Shown here piece after piece: positions 46,552 through 55,607 of a stretch of 64,000 nucleotides of DNA; position 1 is the first letter of the stretch; every line of letters begins with the position of its first letter. Source of the stretch: Gilvimarinus algae (GTDB taxonomy: Bacteria; Pseudomonadota; Gammaproteobacteria; Pseudomonadales; Cellvibrionaceae). The DNA lies in assembly GCF_030518215.1 (NCBI RefSeq), contig NZ_JAULRT010000035.1:310001-374000 (forward strand), in the 5' to 3' direction. The translations under genes and the position numbers were made by a program. The notes beneath the pieces are model-generated. The model was not told the origin of the DNA, did no database searches, and saw nothing but the letters and a program-made list of their open reading frames with translations.

Positions 46552-48141
46552 ATGCGTAAAAGCAAACACCCCCTGCATCCGGATGCGCCCCTTAAGCTGA
46601 CCGACCACGGCCGGCCGGTGACGCGGCGCGATTTGATCTGCCAGGGCTTTCAAAAGGGCACGGCGGCGGTTCTGGGCGGCAGTGTGTTCAGCCTGTTTGC
46701 CAATCCGCGCTCAGCCGAGGCGGCGCTCTCGTCGGACTTGGCCGCCATGCGCGAGGCCTGCGGCATTGCTACCCAGGGTGCGGGCAAGATTCCGTTTATC
46801 TGTTTTGATTTGGCAGGCGGCGCCAATATCGCCGGCTCCAATGTGCTGGTGGGCGGCCCGGGCGGGCAAATGGATTTTCTGTCCACCGCCGGTTACAGCA
46901 AACAGGGCCTGCCGGGGGACATGACGCCCCAGAGCGGGCAGGGCACCTTTATCAATCAGGATCTGGGCCTCGCCTTTCACTCCGACAGCCAGATGCTGCG
47001 CGGGATTTTAGAGCGCATTGGCGCCGATCGCGCCGCCAGCATCAACGGAGCGGTGATTCCCGCCCGCTCGGAAAACGACACGGGCAACAACCCCCACAAC
47101 CCCATGTACGGCATTAACCGGGTGGGCGCCAACGGCTCGCTGCTGGCGCTGATCGGCTCGCGCGCCAGCGACTCGGGCGGCAACTCCCTGGCCCCGAGCA
47201 TGCTCTTCAACCCCGAGGTGCGCCCCACCAAGGTGGACCGCCCCAGCGATGTCTCTGGCCTTGTGGATGTAGGCGATCTGGTGGGCTTGCTCAGCCAGTC
47301 GGACACGGTTGCGGTGATGGAATCCATGTACCGCATCAGCAACGCCAAACTGGGCGCGGTAAACACCGGCAGCGCCCGCGATGCGGTACTAAAAGACCTG
47401 ATGCGCTGCGGCTATGTGAAGAGCGCGGACCTGGCCGACCGCTTCGGCAACCCCGCCGCCATTGATCCTGTGGCCGACCCGGACATTGTCGGCCCCGCCG
47501 GTATTTTCAGCTTTGACGAATTCGACTCCGACGGCGAGTTCCGCAAGGCCGCCTCGGTAATGAAACTGGTGGTGAACGGCTACGCCGGCGCCGGCACCAT
47601 TACCATGGGCGGTTACGACTATCACACCGGCGACCGCTCCACCGGCGAGATTCGCGACCTGCGCGCCGGGCGCTGCATTGGCGCCTGCCTGGAATACGCC
47701 GCCCGCGTGGGCGTGCCGATTATGGTGTATGTGTTTTCCGACGGCTCGGTCTTCTCCAACGGTATGCTGGACAACTCCGCCGAAGGTCGCGGCAAAGGCG
47801 TCTGGACCGGCGATAACCAGCAAACCGCCGCCAGCTTCTTTTTGGTCTACAACCCCAATGGTCGCCCGGGTATTGTCGGCGGCTCATTGGAAGAGCAGGC
47901 CATTCACCAGCAGCTGGGTTATATGCGCTCCAGCGGCGATGTCGAAACCGCCTCCAGCCCGGCCGCCAATAACGTAAATTTGCTGGTGGAAACGCTGGTG
48001 CTCAATTACATGGCGCTGCACGGTGAGCAGAATTTGTTTCCGACGCTGTTTCCCCAGCATGGGTTGGGCAATGCGAGTTTGATGGATCGGCTGACGGCGA
48101 TGATGCCGATTTGTGATGGGGTGATTGGGAATCCGGTTTAG
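46552..48141 (+). CDS. DUF1501-like twin-arginine exported protein
   Basis: 529 residues. The N-terminus has a twin-arginine-like signal (VTRRDLICQGFQKGTAAVLG). The core shows the DUF1501 style: PFICFDLAGGANIAGSNVLV, HSDSQMLRGILERIGADRA, GGYDYHTGDRSTGEIRD and VYVFSDGSVFSNGM, with the alkaline-phosphatase-like order of an early Asp and late His/Asp residues. DUF1501 proteins are often encoded with secreted cytochromes in planctomycetes and marine Gammaproteobacteria. GGAG stands before the ATG. Its last 33 coding bases are repeated exactly at 53503-53535. Confidence 0.8.
   Translation: MRKSKHPLHPDAPLKLTDHGRPVTRRDLICQGFQKGTAAVLGGSVFSLFANPRSAEAALSSDLAAMREACGIATQGAGKIPFICFDLAGGANIAGSNVLVGGPGGQMDFLSTAGYSKQGLPGDMTPQSGQGTFINQDLGLAFHSDSQMLRGILERIGADRAASINGAVIPARSENDTGNNPHNPMYGINRVGANGSLLALIGSRASDSGGNSLAPSMLFNPEVRPTKVDRPSDVSGLVDVGDLVGLLSQSDTVAVMESMYRISNAKLGAVNTGSARDAVLKDLMRCGYVKSADLADRFGNPAAIDPVADPDIVGPAGIFSFDEFDSDGEFRKAASVMKLVVNGYAGAGTITMGGYDYHTGDRSTGEIRDLRAGRCIGACLEYAARVGVPIMVYVFSDGSVFSNGMLDNSAEGRGKGVWTGDNQQTAASFFLVYNPNGRPGIVGGSLEEQAIHQQLGYMRSSGDVETASSPAANNVNLLVETLVLNYMALHGEQNLFPTLFPQHGLGNASLMDRLTAMMPICDGVIGNPV
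48105..48137. repeat. 33-bp direct repeat, left copy (3' end of DUF1501-like gene)
   Basis: The last bases of the DUF1501-like gene, from GCCGATTTGTGATGG to AATCCGGT, recur without mismatch at 53503-53535. The two copies bracket a 5.4-kb low-GC insert, as expected for the attachment-site duplication left by an element that integrated at a gene 3' end. Confidence 0.7.
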
Positions 48142-48220
48142 GTTTTTGCCTGCCGGCGGCGGATTGCGTCTTTGACGCTTTTGATTCGTCTTTCAGCGGT
48201 AGGGAAAGGGTTTCGCCCTT

Positions 48221-48438
48221 ACGGGCGAGTTACTTCTGTCACGCTACAGAAGTAACCAAGAGAGCGCCCCCAGAGATCCCGGCCTTCGGCTTCCCTCGCT
48301 CCGGTCTATTTTAGAGGGCCGTATCGACAGGCCCTCCCTGGCCTGACGATACTTGCGCAAACGTCCTGTTTGCTTACCCACTAAAATAGACCTCCACTCG
48401 GCTGGATCTATGGGGATTAAAGAGTAGTGCTTTGTAGC
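48221..48438. repeat. Structured intergenic repeat family A, copy 1
   Basis: A 218-base element related to 53570-53787 and 55030-55172. Hairpin 1: GTTACTTCTGT (48229-48239) with ACAGAAGTAAC (48246-48256). Outer helix: AGATCCCGGCC (48274-48284) with GGCTGGATCT (48400-48409). Second helix: GGTCTATTTTAG (48303-48314) with CTAAAATAGACC (48381-48392). Inside are GTATCG/CGATAC (48321-48326, 48347-48352) and GCAAAC/GTTTGC (48357-48362, 48368-48373). The 48142-48556 gap holds nothing else except a short AAGTAAACTGTCCCC motif near 48463. Confidence 0.8.
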
Positions 48439-48556
48439 ACAACTAAGGTCCAGATTGAATTAAGTAAACTGTCCCCAGAATTCTCCAGAATTCCTATATT
48501 TTTTCATAAGCCATAAAGCTGTGCTCCGACCCTTACAACTTTAGGTTTTTAAGTAT

Positions 48557-49888
48557 CTAACTATCAATTGAGAACTTATAAGCACCATAATCACCTGTTA
48601 CTCCGGTAATACGCAGGGTATAAGTTCCCGTCATTGGGGCTGTGTAACTCAACGTATAATCTTTTCTTCCTGTATATACGGTATCGTCTTCTATAATGCT
48701 CCCGTCGGGAGCAATAAACTCAACTTCAACCCGAATTCCTAAATTTTGTTTTTTGCTCAGTAAACGAAAGGCTGAGTTTCCAGCAACTTCGATCTTATAT
48801 TCCGCATAAGTATCTTCGGACAAAAAACCCTTTACTGTGTCCCCCCGCCCTAAGACATTGGCTTCACCGAGCAATTGTTCAGGCGTCGCTATTGTTTCCC
48901 ACTGAAAATTATATGTACCATAATCACCGGTCACACCCGTAATACGAAGAGTATACTCGCCCTCTGATGCCGCACCGTAACCCAATGAATAATCTTTATC
49001 GCCAGTGTACAGCGTGTCATCCTTTATCACTTTTCCATTGGGCGCTATAAATTCCACCCCAACCCGAAGTCCTTGGCTTTGTTTTTTACTTTTCAAACGA
49101 AAAGCCGTATTTCCTTTGACTATAACCGCATACTCAGCATAAGTATCTTCAGATACAAATCCATTAACAACATCTCCATGGCCTAAGACATTGGCTTCGC
49201 CGAGCAGTTGTTCAGGCGTCGCTATTATTTCCCACTGAAAATTATATGTACCATAATCACCGGTTACACCCGTAATACGAAGGGTATACTCACCCTCTGA
49301 TACCGAACCATAACCCAATGAATAATCTTTATCGCCAGTGTACAGGGTGTCATCCTTTATCACTTTTCCATTGGGCGCTATAAATTCCACCTCCACCCGA
49401 AGCCCTTGGTTTTGCTTTTTACTTTTCAAACGAAAGGCCGTGTTTCCTGTGGCTACAACCGTATATTCGGCATAAGTATCTTCAGATAAAAATCCATTAA
49501 CAGTATCGCCATGCCCTAAGATATTGACTTCACCGAGCAATTGTTCAGGCGTCGCTATTGTTTCCCACTGAAAATCATATGTCCCATAATCACCGGTCAC
49601 ACCCGTAATACGAAGAGTATACTCGCCCTCTGATGCCGCACCGTAACCCAATGAATAATCTTTATCGCCAGTGTACAGGGTGTCGTCCTTTATCACTTTT
49701 CCATTAGGCGCTATGAACTCCACCTCCACCCTAAGCCCTTGGTTTTGTTTTTTGCTTCGTAGACGAAAAGCTGTATTTCCCGTTACAATAATGGGTATGC
49801 TTTTTTCTTGACCCTCAGTTATTTCTCCTTCAAAAGTATTTGTATCATTATTTTTCATTTGGATTTTATTTTTTGAAATCTTACGTTT
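48557..49888 (-). repeat. Four tandem 333-bp coding repeats
   Basis: Units of exactly 333 bases (for example ACTGAAAATTATATGTAC at 48901, again at 49234 and, slightly changed, at 49567) code for the PPC-like units. The three inner units are nearly identical at DNA level, so they were copied or homogenised recently; the unit nearest the stop is diverged. Confidence 0.85.
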
Positions 49889-50572
49889 CTCTTCACTAAA
49901 CGCATTTGGGTCGCCTGAAGCTTCAATATGCTTTTCTATTTCCGACGAATATCCATCCATAACCGATTTTGTTATATCGGATATTGAATCCATCCTTAAA
50001 ACTCGCCCAACACCATCAGAGACCGACACCAACATTCCAAGTGGGTAACTTCCAATGTATACGATACTGCCACTCATCCCCTGAATTATTTCTTTGCTAG
50101 AGTCAGAAAGAGCCACATCGAAGTATGTGTGAAGATCTTTATTTACGATTCTTAGGTCAAACTCAGTTAAGGACCCGCTTTTCTTGCGAAAGCTCAAGGT
50201 GGCTTCTTGGCTTGCTGAAAGCAGTGTATTAACTCTCTTACCACCATCTTTCCACGATGAGTCCCGACACATTTTTGTGTAGTCGCTCGGCAGCAATATA
50301 AGCGCCAAGTCTTGAGGGTAAGAAGTTAAAAAACTTCCGTTAACATCACGCTCGTGTGGAGAGCTTACATAAATACCATCTGCATTCTCGACAACATGCT
50401 TAGGTGTGTAGACAAAGCAGTTTCCTCCTACCTCTCTAAGAATTCCTCTTCCTGATTGAAAGTCAGTTTCAATAACAACATCTGTCGCTTGGGCAAAGGA
50501 GATAAAAGTAAAAAAAAATAGAGCAATCCCTAAGTTCTTTATAAGTTCCACGTGATCATGCCATTTACTCAT
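48557..50572 (-). CDS. Secreted trypsin-like protein with four PPC-like repeats
   Basis: 671 residues. Signal peptide (LGIALFFFTFISFAQA), then a trypsin-like domain with H59 (YTPKHVV), D88 (QDLALILLP) and S167 (GMSGSIVY) in correct order. The rest is four tandem 111-residue units, each ending with YTLRITGVTGDYG and resembling the bacterial pre-peptidase C-terminal (PPC) beta-sandwich. The last unit is the most divergent. Codon use is AT-rich compared with the genome. Last gene of an operon with two unknown envelope proteins. A periplasmic or secreted protease or protease-like sensor is likely. Confidence 0.75.
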   Translation of the reverse strand: MSKWHDHVELIKNLGIALFFFTFISFAQATDVVIETDFQSGRGILREVGGNCFVYTPKHVVENADGIYVSSPHERDVNGSFLTSYPQDLALILLPSDYTKMCRDSSWKDGGKRVNTLLSASQEATLSFRKKSGSLTEFDLRIVNKDLHTYFDVALSDSSKEIIQGMSGSIVYIGSYPLGMLVSVSDGVGRVLRMDSISDITKSVMDGYSSEIEKHIEASGDPNAFSEEKRKISKNKIQMKNNDTNTFEGEITEGQEKSIPIIVTGNTAFRLRSKKQNQGLRVEVEFIAPNGKVIKDDTLYTGDKDYSLGYGAASEGEYTLRITGVTGDYGTYDFQWETIATPEQLLGEVNILGHGDTVNGFLSEDTYAEYTVVATGNTAFRLKSKKQNQGLRVEVEFIAPNGKVIKDDTLYTGDKDYSLGYGSVSEGEYTLRITGVTGDYGTYNFQWEIIATPEQLLGEANVLGHGDVVNGFVSEDTYAEYAVIVKGNTAFRLKSKKQSQGLRVGVEFIAPNGKVIKDDTLYTGDKDYSLGYGAASEGEYTLRITGVTGDYGTYNFQWETIATPEQLLGEANVLGRGDTVKGFLSEDTYAEYKIEVAGNSAFRLLSKKQNLGIRVEVEFIAPDGSIIEDDTVYTGRKDYTLSYTAPMTGTYTLRITGVTGDYGAYKFSIDS

Positions 50573-50588
50573 TTCTTAAATCCTTTTT

Positions 50589-51494
50589 CTATTCTGCCAA
50601 ATTAATTACTTTCAACCGCAGTAAGAACGTTATTATCACGCCGAAAAATTGAGCAAGTAAAAACAACGCAGATAGACTAATTGCAAGCTCATTATCATCA
50701 GATAGCCTATTTAAAAAACTAATTTTGATATTTCTAGCGGCAGATCGATAACTTTGTGCAAATACCTCGCCCCCCTCAACTACAACCACTCCCTCTAGGC
50801 CGCTTTCATCTTTGGTGGCTCTCAGGATTCCTCTCGCTGGGCGATCTTGCCCCGACATGGTCACCAAGTCTCCTCTTTGGAGGTCAATTGGGGTATGCTG
50901 AAACTCTGACTCGGTCAATATGGACCTTTCTTGTATTACTACGTGACCAGATAACAATAACGGAAAGTATGCATCGCTAGCATCTGAGACATTGCGCCCT
51001 ATTTTTATATCGCCATAAAGATTCATTGTAAAGACGGAATTCGTTTCATTCAGAGACAGTACAAACGACGTACATACCCCTAACGGAGAATCATTTAGTT
51101 TTCCTCCTGATTTGGAGAAATTCTCTCCCTGTACGTCAATTCGTATATCTGACGATCCAAATCTAGTTATACTGACGGTCGAACCTGGGTCGAACACCAG
51201 TACGCTTTCACTTTCTGCCCATTCTGAAAATGAATCCCCACAATGTTCTGATAACTTGTAAGCTTTCAACAGAACTCCCGACGCATTATTATTAGACGGA
51301 TAATAGGTATAGCTTTCTGACTCGACTAAAATTGAGTACTTAGCGTCTTCGCTTACTTTTCCAACTACTGCCATTATGAAAAGTACAGTGAACGCTGCCA
51401 TGACAGAAATAAAGAATATGATGAGAATAATTGTAGATTTATGTAAGCGATCAAGCTCCAAGTATCTGATAGCGGTTTTCAGTTTTTTCTTCAT
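50589..51494 (-). CDS. Membrane protein of unknown function with large external domain
   Basis: 301 residues. One membrane helix near the N-terminus (TIILIIFFISVMAAFTVLFI) and one near the C-terminus (AISLSALFLLAQFFGVIITF) bracket about 210 residues predicted outside the cytoplasm, with cysteines at SEHCGD and LGVCTSF. The domain is beta-rich (SVLVFDPGSTVSITRFGSSD, GLEGVVVVEGGEVFAQSYRS) and recalls FecR-like periplasmic sheets, but I cannot assign a family. It lies 16 bases before the trypsin-like gene and shares TAATG with the gene before it. AT-rich. Confidence 0.7.
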   Translation of the reverse strand: MKKKLKTAIRYLELDRLHKSTIILIIFFISVMAAFTVLFIMAVVGKVSEDAKYSILVESESYTYYPSNNNASGVLLKAYKLSEHCGDSFSEWAESESVLVFDPGSTVSITRFGSSDIRIDVQGENFSKSGGKLNDSPLGVCTSFVLSLNETNSVFTMNLYGDIKIGRNVSDASDAYFPLLLSGHVVIQERSILTESEFQHTPIDLQRGDLVTMSGQDRPARGILRATKDESGLEGVVVVEGGEVFAQSYRSAARNIKISFLNRLSDDNELAISLSALFLLAQFFGVIITFLLRLKVINLAE

Positions 51495-52174
51495 TATGGA
51501 AGCCAGATTATATATTTTTTGTTACGACCTGTACTCATAACAATTAGATTATCTCCGGAAGCTAAAGCATCAATTATTTTACACCGTTTGTTAAAAGCGA
51601 CTCTTGCTTCGGACTCGACACCTTCACAAAAGACACTACCAGACGTAGCTGTGTATTTAGCTATCGGTGCCGCACTATTGACATATAGGCTACCTTTCAA
51701 CTCTTTGAGTTGAGGTTTCCCCCATGAAGAGGGTATGACTCGGTGATATCTTTTTCTTTTGTTTCTAGAATCTTCAACTTCATCGTAAGCATATACAACT
51801 AGTTCGTTCTTATTGTATTTCTTCAATGACTCCTGATACTTTGAGGGGACAGTCAATTTTTGCCATTGAGCACCATTTCCGGTGAACGTCACTTCCATTT
51901 CAGCACTGTAAACTCCGTCAATTGAACGAATTTGTAGATGAAGCGTTTCTATTCCCTCCGGACGAGCCAGATAAAGATCCTCAAGTTTGGGATTGCTGGA
52001 CTGCCCTTCAAATTGATAGCCAATAAGTATGCCGCCAGACACCTCCACCTGTTCCGATAGGCTTTCATGAAACCCTTGGATTTGGTAGTCCTGACCAAAT
52101 GCTGGAATCCAGCATCCACCCGTCAGAGTAATAAATAGCATCACGCTAAAGAATTTTTTTCTTTTCATTTTCAA
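51494..52174 (-). CDS. Secreted protein of unknown function
   Basis: 226 residues with a signal peptide that may be a lipoprotein type (FSVMLFITLTGGCWIPAFG). The mature part has an IgG-like strand pattern (GILIGYQFEGQSSNPKLEDL, YSAEMEVTFTGNGAQWQKLT) and a basic segment (YDEVEDSRNKRKRYHRV). Late cysteines: FCEGVES and NKRCKII. No family recognised. First gene of the three-gene AT-rich operon. Confidence 0.65.
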   Translation of the reverse strand: MKMKRKKFFSVMLFITLTGGCWIPAFGQDYQIQGFHESLSEQVEVSGGILIGYQFEGQSSNPKLEDLYLARPEGIETLHLQIRSIDGVYSAEMEVTFTGNGAQWQKLTVPSKYQESLKKYNKNELVVYAYDEVEDSRNKRKRYHRVIPSSWGKPQLKELKGSLYVNSAAPIAKYTATSGSVFCEGVESEARVAFNKRCKIIDALASGDNLIVMSTGRNKKYIIWLP

Positions 52175-52319
52175 TTGCTTAGTTGTTTGGATAAGCTGCC
52201 CATTACGATATTTTGGGTCGTCGGGATCAGATACCCTCTTGAAATATAGATTGCCCTGCCCCAGACCCTTTCGACATAAATTTAATAGTTGACCAGTATT
52301 GGCGCACTTGATTGAGATC

Positions 52320-52500
52320 TTCAGAAGGGAAGGAAAAAGAGTTACCGCTTGTACGCGGGTCGGCCCCGTTATTATCTAACCTTCCTGACTGGTTCAATCT
52401 GACTCCTCTAAGCTTGCTTCTGGCAAGCGGGCTGTACCGCTGATAAGCCTTACTCGCTATGTGACTTACTGTGCCACGGCGAGACGAGGTTGGCAACCGG
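52320..52500. repeat. Intergenic repeat family B, copy 1
   Basis: About 180 bases similar to 57412-57605: shared TTCAGAA-GGAAGG, GGCCCC-TTAT, ACCTTCC, CTCAATCTG and TTACTGTGCCACG...GAGGTTGGCAAC blocks. Minus-strand frames of both copies align weakly as protein (LPTS...RGTV.HIA), so an ancient coding origin is possible. The gap 52175-52674 holds nothing else convincing. Confidence 0.6.
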
Positions 52501-52674
52501 CAGGGGCATTTCTCTGTCGGCTATTTCAGTAGACCTGTTGCCAACGTACGGAAGACCTTTATTTCTATGGGTAGGGCATCGCTGACGGCGACCCAAAGTG
52601 CTGCATTTAGCGTAGCGCCGTTAGTAGCCCTGCCTCCAGGCCCCCAAAGTCTGTCCCGGAGATACCGAAGGCGC

Positions 52675-52965
52675 TTACCAATACTTTGGTAGCCGTCGGG
52701 AGGTATGAAAAACGCGAAGTATCTCAATGCGGTTTAGTCTCGGCCTCACTCGGTAGGGGATGACGTAGCGTGTGCCGGGTACGACTAGCTCGCGGGTGCC
52801 GTAAATACGCCCTGGGTTACCCATTGCTGGGTTGGCTGGCAATAAATTAACGGCATCAAAAACTCGCTGTACAACGAGCCTGGCTGCTGCCGGATTATCC
52901 TTTGCAATATATTCGGCTTCGTCATTGAGGTTCTGAAGTGCTTTGTGAAGCCACTTAACCTGCAT
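52675..52965 (-). CDS. ParE/RelE-superfamily toxin
   Basis: 96 residues: VKWLHKALQNLNDEAEYIAK, ARLVVQRVFDAVNLLPANPA, GRIYGTRELVVPGTRYVIPY and the final RIEILRVFHTSRRLP are standard for the family. It is expected to poison gyrase (ParE) or cut mRNA (RelE) when freed from its antitoxin. The ATG lies inside the antitoxin gene (11-base overlap). Confidence 0.9.
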   Translation of the reverse strand: MQVKWLHKALQNLNDEAEYIAKDNPAAARLVVQRVFDAVNLLPANPAMGNPGRIYGTRELVVPGTRYVIPYRVRPRLNRIEILRVFHTSRRLPKYW

Positions 52966-53197
52966 TTACATCCCACTTAGCAAACGTCTTACTTACCTCC
53001 TGGTCATTAGCGAAGTCGCCATTATCAGCCTCTTTAACTGCCTCTTTGATCTCTTGAATTTGCCATTCATTTAGCTCGATGAAATCGCGAAGAGCTTCAG
53101 CTGCAAGAAAGGATTTAGAGCGGTGGGTGGCCGCCGCGAGCTGGTCTAGTCGCTGCTTTAACTCTGGCTCTAGGCGGATAGTCATAGTGGTAGACAT
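52955..53197 (-). CDS. Ribbon-helix-helix antitoxin (CopG/ParD/RelB-like)
   Basis: 80 residues: MTIRLEPELKQRLDQLAAAT and RSKSFLAAEALRDFIELNEW form the ribbon-helix-helix, and the acidic C-terminus (VKEADNGDFANDQEVSKTFA) neutralises the toxin. AAGG precedes the ATG and a perfect operator lies 15 bases further upstream, so autoregulation by the toxin-antitoxin complex is expected. Confidence 0.9.
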   Translation of the reverse strand: MSTTMTIRLEPELKQRLDQLAAATHRSKSFLAAEALRDFIELNEWQIQEIKEAVKEADNGDFANDQEVSKTFAKWDVNAG

Positions 53198-53211
53198 GGC
53201 AATACCTTATC

Positions 53212-53232
53212 AAGTGTACATTGTGTACACTT
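53212..53232. promoter_or_regulatory. Toxin-antitoxin operator
   Basis: AAGTGTACA-TTG-TGTACACTT is a perfect inverted repeat with nine-base arms, 15 bases upstream of the antitoxin ATG, typical of ribbon-helix-helix self-control sites. Confidence 0.8.
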
Positions 53233-53251
53233 TAGCACATCTGATTTTCGC

Positions 53252-53480
53252 AAGGGGCTTTTGTCGGAAGCGCTTGGGTCGTATCTGGAAGGCGATATTG
53301 TTGTCGGCACCGCCCTGCTTCGCGATTACCTCAACGGGACTCGGGTTTTTGCTGAAGTCGCCGAGGCGCTGGGTATGCAGGAGGCGGGGCTTCGCCGTAT
53401 GATTAGCCCCAGCCGCTAAGAATTTTTTCGACTGTTTAAAGTCTGTCAGGGCCGGGAGGGCATTCGTTCTGCGAATGGGT
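53252..53480 (+). pseudogene. HigA-type addiction-module antidote remnant
   Basis: The plus-strand frame KGLLSEALGSYLEGDIVVG, TALLRDYLNGTRVFAEVAEA and GMQEAGLRRMISPSR matches the centre of proteins annotated as HTH addiction-module antidotes. It stops at TAA 53417-53419; shifting frame gives AKNFFDCLKSVRAGRAF, the usual continuation, so a small deletion around the SPSG-NPTA part broke it. The start codon region is also lost beside the toxin-antitoxin operator. No partner toxin remains. Confidence 0.55.
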
Positions 53481-53502
53481 TTTTGCGGTCCGTGGTTTAG
53501 TC

Positions 53503-53535
53503 GCCGATTTGTGATGGGGTGATTGGGAATCCGGT
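53503..53535. repeat. 33-bp direct repeat, right copy
   Basis: Exact copy of 48105-48137, here not within a gene. It marks the right edge of the 5.4-kb insert. Confidence 0.7.
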
Positions 53536-53569
53536 GTGATTTTCGCCGCCCGGCGGGTTATTTCGCCTA

Positions 53570-53787
53570 AAGGCGAGTAACTTTTTAACGGTAAAAAGTT
53601 ACCAAAAACCGTCCCCCCGAGACCCAGCCCTTCGGGTCCCCTCGCTACAGTCGATTTTAGGGGGCCGTCTCGACAGGCCTTCCCTGGCCTGACGAGACTT
53701 GCGCAAACCTCCTGTTTGCTTACCCCCTAAAATAGACTTCCGCTCGGCTGGTTCTAAGGGGATTTACAAGCGGTGCTTTGTCGCCAG
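53570..53787. repeat. Structured intergenic repeat family A, copy 2
   Basis: Same architecture as copy 1 with changed but still pairing arms. Hairpin 1: GTAACTTTTTA (53577-53587) with TAAAAAGTTAC (53592-53602). Outer helix: AGACCCAGCC (53620-53629) with GGCTGGTTCT (53746-53755). Inner helix: GTCTCG (53667-53672) with CGAGAC (53693-53698). The loop GCAAAC/GTTTGC is identical. No gene is present between 53481 and 53893. Confidence 0.8.
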
Positions 53788-53893
53788 CCCATTGAATTAA
53801 GTAACATTACATCAACTTACTTCAAAGCTGCCGGAGATCTGCAGCGCTATTTCGCCACTAGGTTATAAACCTCCAGCTCAGGCCATTGATGTC

Positions 53894-54790
53894 TTAACGC
53901 CCGCGACGATAGTACACCCCTAGTGCCGCCATAATACTCGCCAGTAAAAGCAAGCCAGGCATACTGAACACTGGCAGAGGCGCTACCCGCGACGGAACGC
54001 TCGCGGAGCAAGTCACTGAAACGGACGTTACGGCCCCACCCGAAACAGTGCCATTGCCTCCACTCACGCTACAGCTTTGGCCAACGGGCTGCGATAGCAC
54101 GGTCACGTCGTAAGATGCTCCGACGGGAAGTGGGGTCGAGAAGGCAAAAGGGCCGTCTGCGAGAACAACAAGATCATCGGCCCCATTGTTCTGCAAAGTG
54201 ACACTGCCTGAAAGACCGGACACAGTGCCGCCAACCGTTGCTGTTGAGGTATAGGTAATACAGTAGGTTGAAAAAGTGTTGATGCAAGCGCTGGGAGAGG
54301 AGACATCGAGATAGGAAATACTAGTGGAGTTTCCATCACCGCGGGTGGCTAAATTCATGCCTGTCGCTGTCCAGCCTACACAGCTGTTGGCCGTGACGGC
54401 ACCATCGTTCGATGAGGCCGTCCAGACTAACGTTGGTGTTCCCACACTATTATCCAGATTGGTGACGCCAGTGTTTAGCAGTGCCTGGAAGTCAGAAGCG
54501 ATCTGGGTAACGCCATCGGAGCGGAGAATCGGCTCAGCGGTTGGTATCGAATAGTTGGTGGCCATATCCCGAATTTCATCAGCGCCGTCCACACTAATGA
54601 ATGCACGTGTTGTGCTACCTGCTACAGTGGGCTTATTACTATCCGTATCACAATGCGTGTCAAGTGCAGCTCTACCGCCAATGGAACCGTCAATTGTATC
54701 CGAACTTACCCAGAGCCGCACATCCGCATAAGAACTACAAGAAAAAGAAGCTATGGAAAAGAAAGCAACGGCAATAATTTTGTTTTTCAT
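53894..54790 (-). CDS. DUF1554-like surface protein with PEP/IPTL-CTERM-type anchor
   Basis: 298 residues. Signal peptide (IAVAFFSIASFSCSSYA), then a DUF1554/endostatin-like domain (DVRLWVSSDTIDGSIGGRAA, RAFISVDGADEIRDMATNYS, SNDGAVTANSCVGWTATGM). A beta-sandwich repeat (GGTVSGLSGSVTLQNNGADD, PVGQSCSVSGGNGTVSGGAV) follows. The C-terminus is proline-containing PLPVFSMPGLLLLASIMAAL, then GVYYRRGR: a motif, helix and basic tail as in exosortase/archaeosortase substrates. No sortase gene is seen here. Probably a sorted or anchored surface protein. Confidence 0.75.
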   Translation of the reverse strand: MKNKIIAVAFFSIASFSCSSYADVRLWVSSDTIDGSIGGRAALDTHCDTDSNKPTVAGSTTRAFISVDGADEIRDMATNYSIPTAEPILRSDGVTQIASDFQALLNTGVTNLDNSVGTPTLVWTASSNDGAVTANSCVGWTATGMNLATRGDGNSTSISYLDVSSPSACINTFSTYCITYTSTATVGGTVSGLSGSVTLQNNGADDLVVLADGPFAFSTPLPVGASYDVTVLSQPVGQSCSVSGGNGTVSGGAVTSVSVTCSASVPSRVAPLPVFSMPGLLLLASIMAALGVYYRRGR

Positions 54791-55029
54791 TCTTTTATTT
54801 TCCCCAAGTTATTTTTAATCTTCAGGATTCTATGTGTCACCCAGTTCCTTTGCAAGCTTCCGCTAGCTTGCGATCACCCAGGGGTCGAGGTCTTGCACTG
54901 TGAATTCGGTGTAAGGTAATGGCCTGCGAGCGGCGGTTTTCGCCTTTGATTCACCTTTGACGGGTTAGGGTGTGTGGCACTAAGTTACCCTCTCCCAAGC
55001 TACCCATTGTATGGTTCTTTTTTGTCATT

Positions 55030-55172
55030 CGCCCTCTGTCGCGCTACAGAAGTCACCAAGAGAGCGTGCCCTAGACCCAGCCCCTACGGTCGCTAAGCGT
55101 CCGGCCAGCAAGCACAGCTTGCTTCCGCTCGGCTGGCTCTAAGGGGATTCAAGAGCGGTGCTTTGTAGCCAG
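55030..55172. repeat. Structured intergenic repeat family A, decayed copy 3
   Basis: Keeps the right arm of hairpin 1 (CTACAGAAGTCACCAAGAGAG), the outer helix CCAGCC/GGCTGG and the tail CTAAGGGGATT...GCGGTGCTTTGTAGCCAG, but has lost the inner helices by deletion. The 54791-55259 gap contains nothing else recognisable. Confidence 0.7.
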
Positions 55173-55259: not shown

Positions 55260-55607
55260 ATGTCTGAAGACCCTTTAAAAATCTTATCCGACCAAATCAC
55301 CGAGGCTCATACAAAAATTCAACACGCCCATCAGCACATTAATCCGGTGGTGGCGGTGCGTCGTGGCTTGCGTGATACTGGTATTCCCGCCGATGTGATG
55401 ACGGTCGACTGCTTGCGCACACGCAAGCGCATTATGATGATTCTGCATGATAAAGAGCCAGGCACGCTGCTCTATCAGTTTGGCAGCCTGGATATAGAGG
55501 CCAGCGACGAGTTTCAGCGGAAGGCTTTGTCTGAGGTAAATGTTGATTTACTGTTTGGCTGGATGGGGGATTATTTTTCCGACAAGCCCTTGGCGTATAA
55601 AAATTAA
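55260..55607 (+). CDS. Conserved small protein of unknown function
   Basis: 115 residues without signal peptide. KIQHAHQHINPVVAVRRGLR, CLRTRKRIMMILHDKEPGTL and FQRKALSEVNVDLLFGWMGD give a mixed alpha/beta profile. I think it is a conserved gammaproteobacterial hypothetical protein. GC-rich codons differ from its AT-rich neighbours, so it may belong to the core genome. Confidence 0.65.
   Translation: MSEDPLKILSDQITEAHTKIQHAHQHINPVVAVRRGLRDTGIPADVMTVDCLRTRKRIMMILHDKEPGTLLYQFGSLDIEASDEFQRKALSEVNVDLLFGWMGDYFSDKPLAYKN

Follow-up and report, generated by a model that had tools for sequence, protein, structure and literature searches.

A dispersed repeat of Gilvimarinus algae whose covarying minus-strand fold combines a TwoAYGGAY domain with a candidate triplex pseudoknot

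Within a 64,000-nucleotide stretch of the Gilvimarinus algae genome (contig NZ_JAULRT010000035.1, positions 310,001 to 374,000 of the forward strand; hereafter the window, whose first letter is position 1) an intergenic repeat family carries a fold that is preserved by compensated base changes. Our favoured reading, to which we give a probability of roughly 0.5, is a chromosomal dispersed repeat, similar to repetitive extragenic palindromic (REP) sequences and bacterial interspersed mosaic elements (BIMEs), that is selected as RNA and combines CsrA-type loops with a triplex-capped 3′ part. The structural description itself is highly probable: a unit of about 200 nt would encode, on the minus strand of the window, a structured RNA whose 5′ part is a TwoAYGGAY domain (two hairpins with GGA loops at the tip of a long helix), whose middle is an H-type pseudoknot with a pyrimidine strand lying parallel to the purine strand of stem S1 (U with A-U, C with G-C), and whose 3′ end is a short UCGCC...GGCGA hairpin. 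Some functional role as RNA, whatever it may be, we regard as evenly poised.

Reading of the sequence and self-alignment place three intergenic copies where a first-pass annotation, made from the letters of the window, had reported them. Copy 1 (48212-48444) and copy 2 (53562-53787), both with approximate ends, are 83% identical across 189 nt; the predicted RNA sense of each is the minus strand, which puts the 3′ end of copy 1 at its low coordinate. The third copy (about 55024-55172, minus strand) is present as reported but is decayed rather than complete: the middle of the element is gone (by eye, both GGA hairpins and the greater part of the left arm of hairpin 1), and it was matched neither in the Rfam scan nor by our pseudoknot model R1 (E up to 1). 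Between copies 1 and 2 the arms of hairpin 1 read GTTACTTCTGT/ACAGAAGTAAC (48229-48239/48246-48256) and GTAACTTTTTA/TAAAAAGTTAC (53577-53587/53592-53602), with four changes per arm, all compensated; the inner helix changes from GTATCG/CGATAC to GTCTCG/CGAGAC with pairing kept, and the outer helix CCAGCC/GGCTGG is retained with a G.T pair in copy 1, all in agreement with the earlier description. None of the six translated frames through the repeat gave a Pfam match. Across this genome BLAST returned 12 matches; one is the palindrome within copy 2, so that 11 copies or fragments remain. R1, a covariance model of the 53-position pseudoknot domain, found 12 places; it scored at most 14 candidates per genome, which makes its copy numbers lower bounds.

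To the comparison of two copies we added an alignment of 32 from the eight genomes of the genus, the present one included (60 copies were left after redundancy filtering and 34 of these fitted a core pattern, from which a false and a truncated row were removed by eye). The structure that RNAalifold predicts on these rows has 41 pairs, and 26 of them are changed on both sides, against a mean of 11.8 in shuffled alignments (none of 500 shuffles reached 26) and 2 to 8 when the partners were slid by one to three columns. The covariation score was 0.327, compared with 0.140 after shuffling and 0.024-0.064 after sliding. Although 97.3% of cells are paired, this figure is inflated by predicting the structure on the same rows, and the double changes are less biased. 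The first-pass annotation had looked to a larger alignment for significant covarying pairs and had proposed that the folded form of a dispersed intergenic repeat is under selection; on both points the compensated changes are real and lie beyond chance.

Hairpin 1, which had been described as a hairpin, is a real helix but not a simple hairpin: it lies at the heart of a conserved H-type pseudoknot, the linker of which covaries like a third strand. In copy 1 the pseudoknot domain lies at 48224-48274 on the minus strand (R1, 57.1 bits); the arms of hairpin 1 given above form S1, the loop tract CGCT (48242-48245) pairs with AGCG (48263-48266), and the putative third strand lies at about 48258-48264. 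The domain of copy 2 (53572-53620, minus strand, 59.0 bits) is built in the same way, with the loop ACGG (53588-53591) pairing with CCGT (53609-53612) and the putative third strand at 53604-53608. Along the minus strand the pseudoknot runs S2a, pyrimidine strand, GG, S1 5′ strand, S2b within the S1 loop, and S1 3′ strand, which makes the pyrimidine strand the first loop of the pseudoknot and sets it parallel to the purine strand of S1.

Two collections bear on this arrangement. A pattern set holds 78 occurrences (45 distinct) of the hairpin-1 pattern from at least 80 loci in a species-genome collection; because that pattern fixed part of the stem, a genus set was taken via the TwoAYGGAY domain (domain 2), giving a parsed hairpin in 93 of 141 extracted records, 57 of them distinct. 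The loop can pair with the tract that follows the linker, and the two change together (TCGCC/GGCGA, GGTGGTC/GACCACC, CTGA/TCAG). The mean longest loop-tail complement was 4.11 nt in the genus set and 4.25 nt in the pattern set, against 2.72 and 2.71 nt after shuffling, above every one of 1000 shuffles in both sets (maxima 3.09 and 3.15). Linker purines of the plus strand mirror the purine strand of the stem, such that a G at position 3, 5 or 6 recurs in both, and the differing G positions come from different genera. Among 45 distinct genus-set rows with a linker starting CA, stem purine and linker base are the same at 144 of 172 positions (shuffled mean 99, maximum 115) and G stands with G at 26 of 27 (shuffled mean 9.7, maximum 16; 1000 shuffles in each case); in 40 distinct copies of the pattern set, from other taxa, the agreement is 174/186, and 27/28 for G with G. 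The linker matches S1 base for base in the manner expected of a parallel U.A-U / C.G-C major-groove triplex, which suggests that such a triplex may form. Telomerase RNA and the SAM-II riboswitch contain major-groove triplexes (U.A-U / C+.G-C) with this parallel placement of the pyrimidine strand. The symmetry would also suit a plus-strand purine triplex (H-DNA), which we consider less probable, as domain 2 favours the minus strand and with it the parallel pyrimidine motif. Titles and the opening lines of abstracts yielded no relevant literature on triplex pseudoknots in bacterial repeats.

The statement in the first-pass annotation that the repeat could not be matched to a known element does not hold. 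Scanned against Rfam 15, the window matches one family, RF01731 (TwoAYGGAY), and does so twice on the minus strand: copy 1 at 48296-48399 with 43.6 bits against a gathering score of 43 (GGA hairpins at 48328-48345 and 48357-48373) and copy 2 at 53606-53769 with 54.5 bits (GGA hairpins at 53674-53691 and 53703-53719). Two of the three window copies reach the gathering score, and hairpin 1 lies outside the Rfam match. The genome as a whole has nine RF01731 matches, seven above the cut-off, and none was found in 14 control genomes. Among the 58 genomes searched as relatives, this one included, 17 have matches; further copies in related genomes, whose absence had been named beforehand as grounds for abandoning the idea, occur in all eight genomes of the genus, at 6-22 matches per genome. 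Across the 32 aligned copies GGA is present in both apical loops without exception, the strict AYGGAY loop occurs in a minority and in neither window copy, and the stems below the loops change on both sides. By model score domain 2 is a predicted TwoAYGGAY domain, with loops that depart from the strict consensus. In the portion of PMC2864571 available, RF01731 is listed in 2010 as a probable RNA that is probably neither cis-regulatory nor a riboswitch, and the available part of PMC4333381 (2014) matches its loops to the CsrA-binding motif and names it a candidate CsrA-binding RNA.

Wobble pairs distinguish the two strands. Read on the minus strand, the 32 copies contain 64 G-U cells in 13 pairs and 5 A-C cells in 4 pairs; after removal of one nearly invariant U.G column the counts are 35 and 5. 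G-U cells far exceed A-C cells, and the asymmetry therefore favours a folded molecule on the minus strand, the strand of the RF01731 model. A wider set of 164 non-redundant copies (out of 208) behaves similarly: the minus-sense fold is the more stable in 143, or in 125 of 141 when loci chosen for holding pairs of copies are removed, and it contains more wobbles in 98 copies and fewer in 45. The original phrase 'RNA or single-stranded DNA' is narrowed to the minus strand by this asymmetry, but RNA and minus-strand single-stranded DNA are not separated by it.

In the same 164 copies at least one GGA hairpin loop is found in 124 and at least two in 85, while a UGUYYGAG motif is found in 37 (of which 3 belong to the two-GGA group as well) and 45 copies fall under neither rule; these partner-domain rules are our own and are broader than those of Rfam. 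A second partner domain, UGUYYGAG...GAGUU, stands 5′ of the same pseudoknot at loci L069, L078, L112, L113, L117, L118 and L133, and an Rfam scan of four of them (L069, L078, L117, L133) gave no TwoAYGGAY match. CsrA (PF02599) is encoded in 220 of 398 genomes. Of the 56 genomes that carry the pseudoknot, 48 could be classified (6 were without a usable copy and 2 were left out), and the two-GGA type was seen in 19 of 36 CsrA-positive genomes versus 0 of 12 CsrA-negative ones (Fisher p 0.0013); this type is confined to five family labels, and phylogeny alone may explain the contrast. The association is consistent with CsrA binding and is not proof of it. The mobile small RNA sRNA-Xcc1, tried as an identity for the element, was absent from the gathering-score matches in 31 pseudoknot loci scanned outside the genus.

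The 56 genomes with the pseudoknot module were found by R1 among 398 genomes of Pseudomonadota; the hairpin-1 pattern also occurs in metagenome-assembled genomes labelled Oscillospiraceae, Cystobacterineae, Desulfuromonas or Desulfuromonadales, which may be mis-binned. The copies are chromosomal: few plasmid records match (3 for one query, 1 for another), and none of 50,697 phage records did so for one query. This distribution, together with the intergenic placement beside gene 3′ ends and the variation in copy number within the genus, would also be expected of a selfish, REPIN-like DNA in which the single-stranded fold of one strand is recognised by a trans-acting transposase during replication, the GGA loops are DNA recognition loops and RNA is irrelevant. 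The inverted doublets point the same way, with 35 of 49 distinct pairs of pseudoknots within 900 nt facing outward, or 26 outward, 8 tandem and 5 inward (n=39) without the 20 loci chosen for holding pairs (L248-L267). Against this explanation, no transposase family stood out near the copies when 615 open reading frames (ORFs) were clustered and 25 clusters viewed by eye: these were ordinary cellular genes, one pair resembling an XerD-type recombinase. Moreover, Y1_Tnp is present in 10 of 13 element genomes and absent in 3, no target duplication was visible by eye at three doublets, and two-GGA copies were seen only in CsrA-positive genomes, although this last point is confounded. We regard this explanation as rather unlikely. 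In one genome (G098; loci L248, L249 and L250) the doublets end in AAAAGYRTTTCGC...GCGAAACRCTTTT, with base changes at the far ends matching each other in two of three by eye. In some lineages (L101, L105, L127) the element is directly followed, at its plus-sense end, by A-rich simple repeats; a polyA-tailed retroposon was rejected, as the window copies are without such repeats and the wobbles favour the other strand.

The surroundings of the copies suggest a further explanation, in which the ends of the element act as a transcription terminator or 3′-end barrier against neighbouring genes, on both sides in doublets, and the internal fold is secondary. In a pattern scan the outer ends of both full window copies resemble terminators for transcription arriving from outside. 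In copy 1 the hairpin TTCGCCCTTACGGGCGAG and, after it, the T-rich arm of hairpin 1 (48212-48229, plus strand) face the end of the gene at 46552-48141, and in copy 2 TTCGCCTAAAGGCGAG followed by the T-rich arm lies at 53562-53577 on the same strand; such patterns number 18 in the region against 7.6 expected from shuffles, in a consensus scan that is not evidence of function. With ORFs of at least 120 aa used in place of gene calls, the gene on the 3′ side of the pseudoknot is convergent in 97 of 144 usable cases (95 of 142 without the chosen loci), and convergent intergenic regions outnumber divergent ones by 46 to 19 (45 to 19). Termination explains neither the loop-tail pairing and third-strand covariation nor the GGA loops and the minus-strand wobble bias, and its support comes from a consensus scan and from ORF-based context; as the main role of the element it is improbable.

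One place in the genus shows the repeat beside a site of gene turnover. An element or its remnant follows the gene at 46552-48141, which we take to be a DUF1501 gene, in all eight genomes of the genus. In the window a 33-bp stretch from the 3′ end of this gene (48105-48137, plus strand), the left boundary of the variable cargo, recurs with 100% identity at 53503-53535 (plus strand), directly before copy 2. Two other genomes (G003 and G007) have one element, broken up in G007, and no cargo between this gene and the gene at 55260. The window and two further genomes (G006 and G001) have differing cargo genes between element copies, and in each the gene 3′ end is duplicated ahead of a later copy (33 bp identical, 81 bp at 84% and 38 bp at 92%, respectively). 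The turnover site is in this way bracketed by the repeat in three species (window; L207; L208), with cargo that differs between the duplicates. The window cargo comprises a repeat-rich protein and a ParE/ribbon-helix-helix pair: a 671-aa protein at 48557-50572 has repeats of 333-nt period and Pfam matches only to Ig/Fn3-like domains, and a ParE toxin with a ribbon-helix-helix antitoxin lies at 52675-53197, followed by an antitoxin-like open stretch at about 53261-53421 (by eye). In G006 (L207:5775-10124) the cargo between element copies is a cyclic-oligonucleotide-based antiphage signalling system (CBASS) operon of cyclase, E1-E2, JAB and SAVED-2TM effector, presumably type II. A second site just upstream of the DUF1501 gene is occupied in five genomes, whereas this genome and G001 have nothing there; G005, outside that alignment, also looks empty.

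Differing cargo after the same gene, each with a duplicated gene end, and the cargo-free sites with one element could indicate that the copies are a recombination platform, a repeated homology or site-specific target, attC-like in effect, that lets cargo come and go. The pattern was seen at one site. The proteins identified between copies at three other places are ordinary cellular ones, no integrase was found among the cargo proteins scanned, and we consider the explanation very improbable. A general association with defence genes was likewise rejected on a few proteins enclosed by copies elsewhere: these are a DeaD helicase, glutamate synthase, a NUDIX/ThiE protein and others without a match, so that the CBASS operon at the DUF1501 site stands alone. 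The NUDIX/ThiE protein also matches the PADLOC candidate PDC-S07, and the DeaD helicase matches PADLOC helicase models.

Our favoured reading, a dispersed repeat selected as RNA, can be put as a mechanism. Once transcribed, the element would fold such that the triplex pseudoknot shields the 3′ part of the RNA from 3′-to-5′ decay, or serves as a handle for a protein that recognises the family. In hosts with CsrA or RsmA the GGA loops may bind and titrate that protein, a role we propose tentatively. Each end looks from outside like an intrinsic terminator, a property that may make copies tolerable beside gene 3′ ends, and copies would multiply within the chromosome and could bracket sites of gene turnover.

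Several observations weigh against this reading. The structure behind the wobble count was predicted on the sense strand, which somewhat favours G-U, and G.T pairs form in single-stranded DNA too, so that the strand asymmetry fits folded DNA as well; a small point is that the G.T pair in the outer helix of copy 1 becomes an A.C mismatch on the assigned strand. The shuffle tests ignore the relatedness of the copies. For a strict triplex, the run lengths of the stem purine strand and the third strand correlate weakly or not at all (0.37, -0.14). As for domain 2, the apical loops in the window are AGGAC/AGGGAG and AGGAG/AGGGAA rather than strict AYGGAY, and outside the genus the RF01731 cut-off is reached in only 3 of the 31 pseudoknot loci scanned (2/14 and 1/17). 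The superfamily as a whole cannot have CsrA as its partner, nor titration as its general role, because 15 of the 56 pseudoknot genomes have no CsrA match (7 with zero matches, 8 inferred from absence in the match list; 41 have one) and many copies carry no GGA pair; the association of the two-GGA type with CsrA is itself confounded by phylogeny. Finally, the gene on the 5′ side is without strand bias (74/144, or 73/142 without the chosen loci), which leaves a general role in 3′ untranslated regions unsupported.

A bolder version, which we think rather doubtful, would make the triplex-locked pseudoknot a 3′-end cap and the defining feature of a superfamily of chromosomal repeats spanning the Proteobacteria and perhaps other groups. 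Its 5′ domains (CsrA-type GGA hairpins or UGUYYGAG...GAGUU) would be interchangeable, it would be a bacterial counterpart of the element for nuclear expression (ENE) triple helices, which confer stability on transposon and viral RNAs, and it would bracket one site at which defence genes, CBASS among them, are gained and lost. As a whole the element is a new form of a known kind, a TwoAYGGAY or other domain joined to a triplex-type pseudoknot, REPIN-like in organisation but not shown to be a REPIN. It is undescribed in the open-access literature searched, also by sequence, as far as the accessible parts of those texts extend; subscription papers and bioRxiv preprints lay outside this scope. On this evidence TwoAYGGAY appears to form the 5′ half of a longer element present in many copies, and the 3′ pseudoknot of that element is common to repeats that our Rfam scans did not recognise. 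The family offers a defined fold and strand, dozens of natural compensatory variants and a contrast between CsrA-positive and CsrA-negative hosts. Should the triplex form, bacteria would possess a widespread 3′ triple helix, and abundant unnamed intergenic repeats would be tied to RNA biology rather than to DNA palindromes alone.

Among known systems, REPINs and BIMEs with their RAYT transposases, as presented in the accessible parts of PMC3116915 and PMC3733652, are likewise chromosomal, intergenic and numerous and form inverted doublets; their GTAG or CGTC tag is named in general terms in the latter. The present unit differs in its length of about 200 nt with a defined RNA-like fold, in the inconstant presence of Y1_Tnp, and in a pseudoknot sequence that is near-identical in distant taxa. 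The TwoAYGGAY RNA (RF01731, clan CL00106) shares the two GGA-loop hairpins, the long closing helix and the minus-strand match, whereas the 3′ pseudoknot, the doublets and the pairing of the pseudoknot with another domain 2 are absent from the portions of the family's descriptions available, and the loops of our element are mostly A(N)GGAN rather than strict AYGGAY. CsrB, RsmY and RsmZ, the RNAs that sequester CsrA or RsmA, also display GGA in the apical loops of short stems; each is a single regulated gene, in contrast to a multi-copy repeat for which CsrA binding is predicted only and whose pseudoknot module also occurs in genomes without a CsrA match. Telomerase RNA and the SAM-II riboswitch resemble the element in holding a pyrimidine strand parallel to the stem purine strand within an H-type pseudoknot, and the ENE-type triplexes of viral and transposon RNAs share the parallel pyrimidine strand. 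Compared with all three, the candidate triplex described here, known from sequence, belongs to bacterial chromosomal repeats, and the identity of its third strand shifts in step with the stem across lineages.

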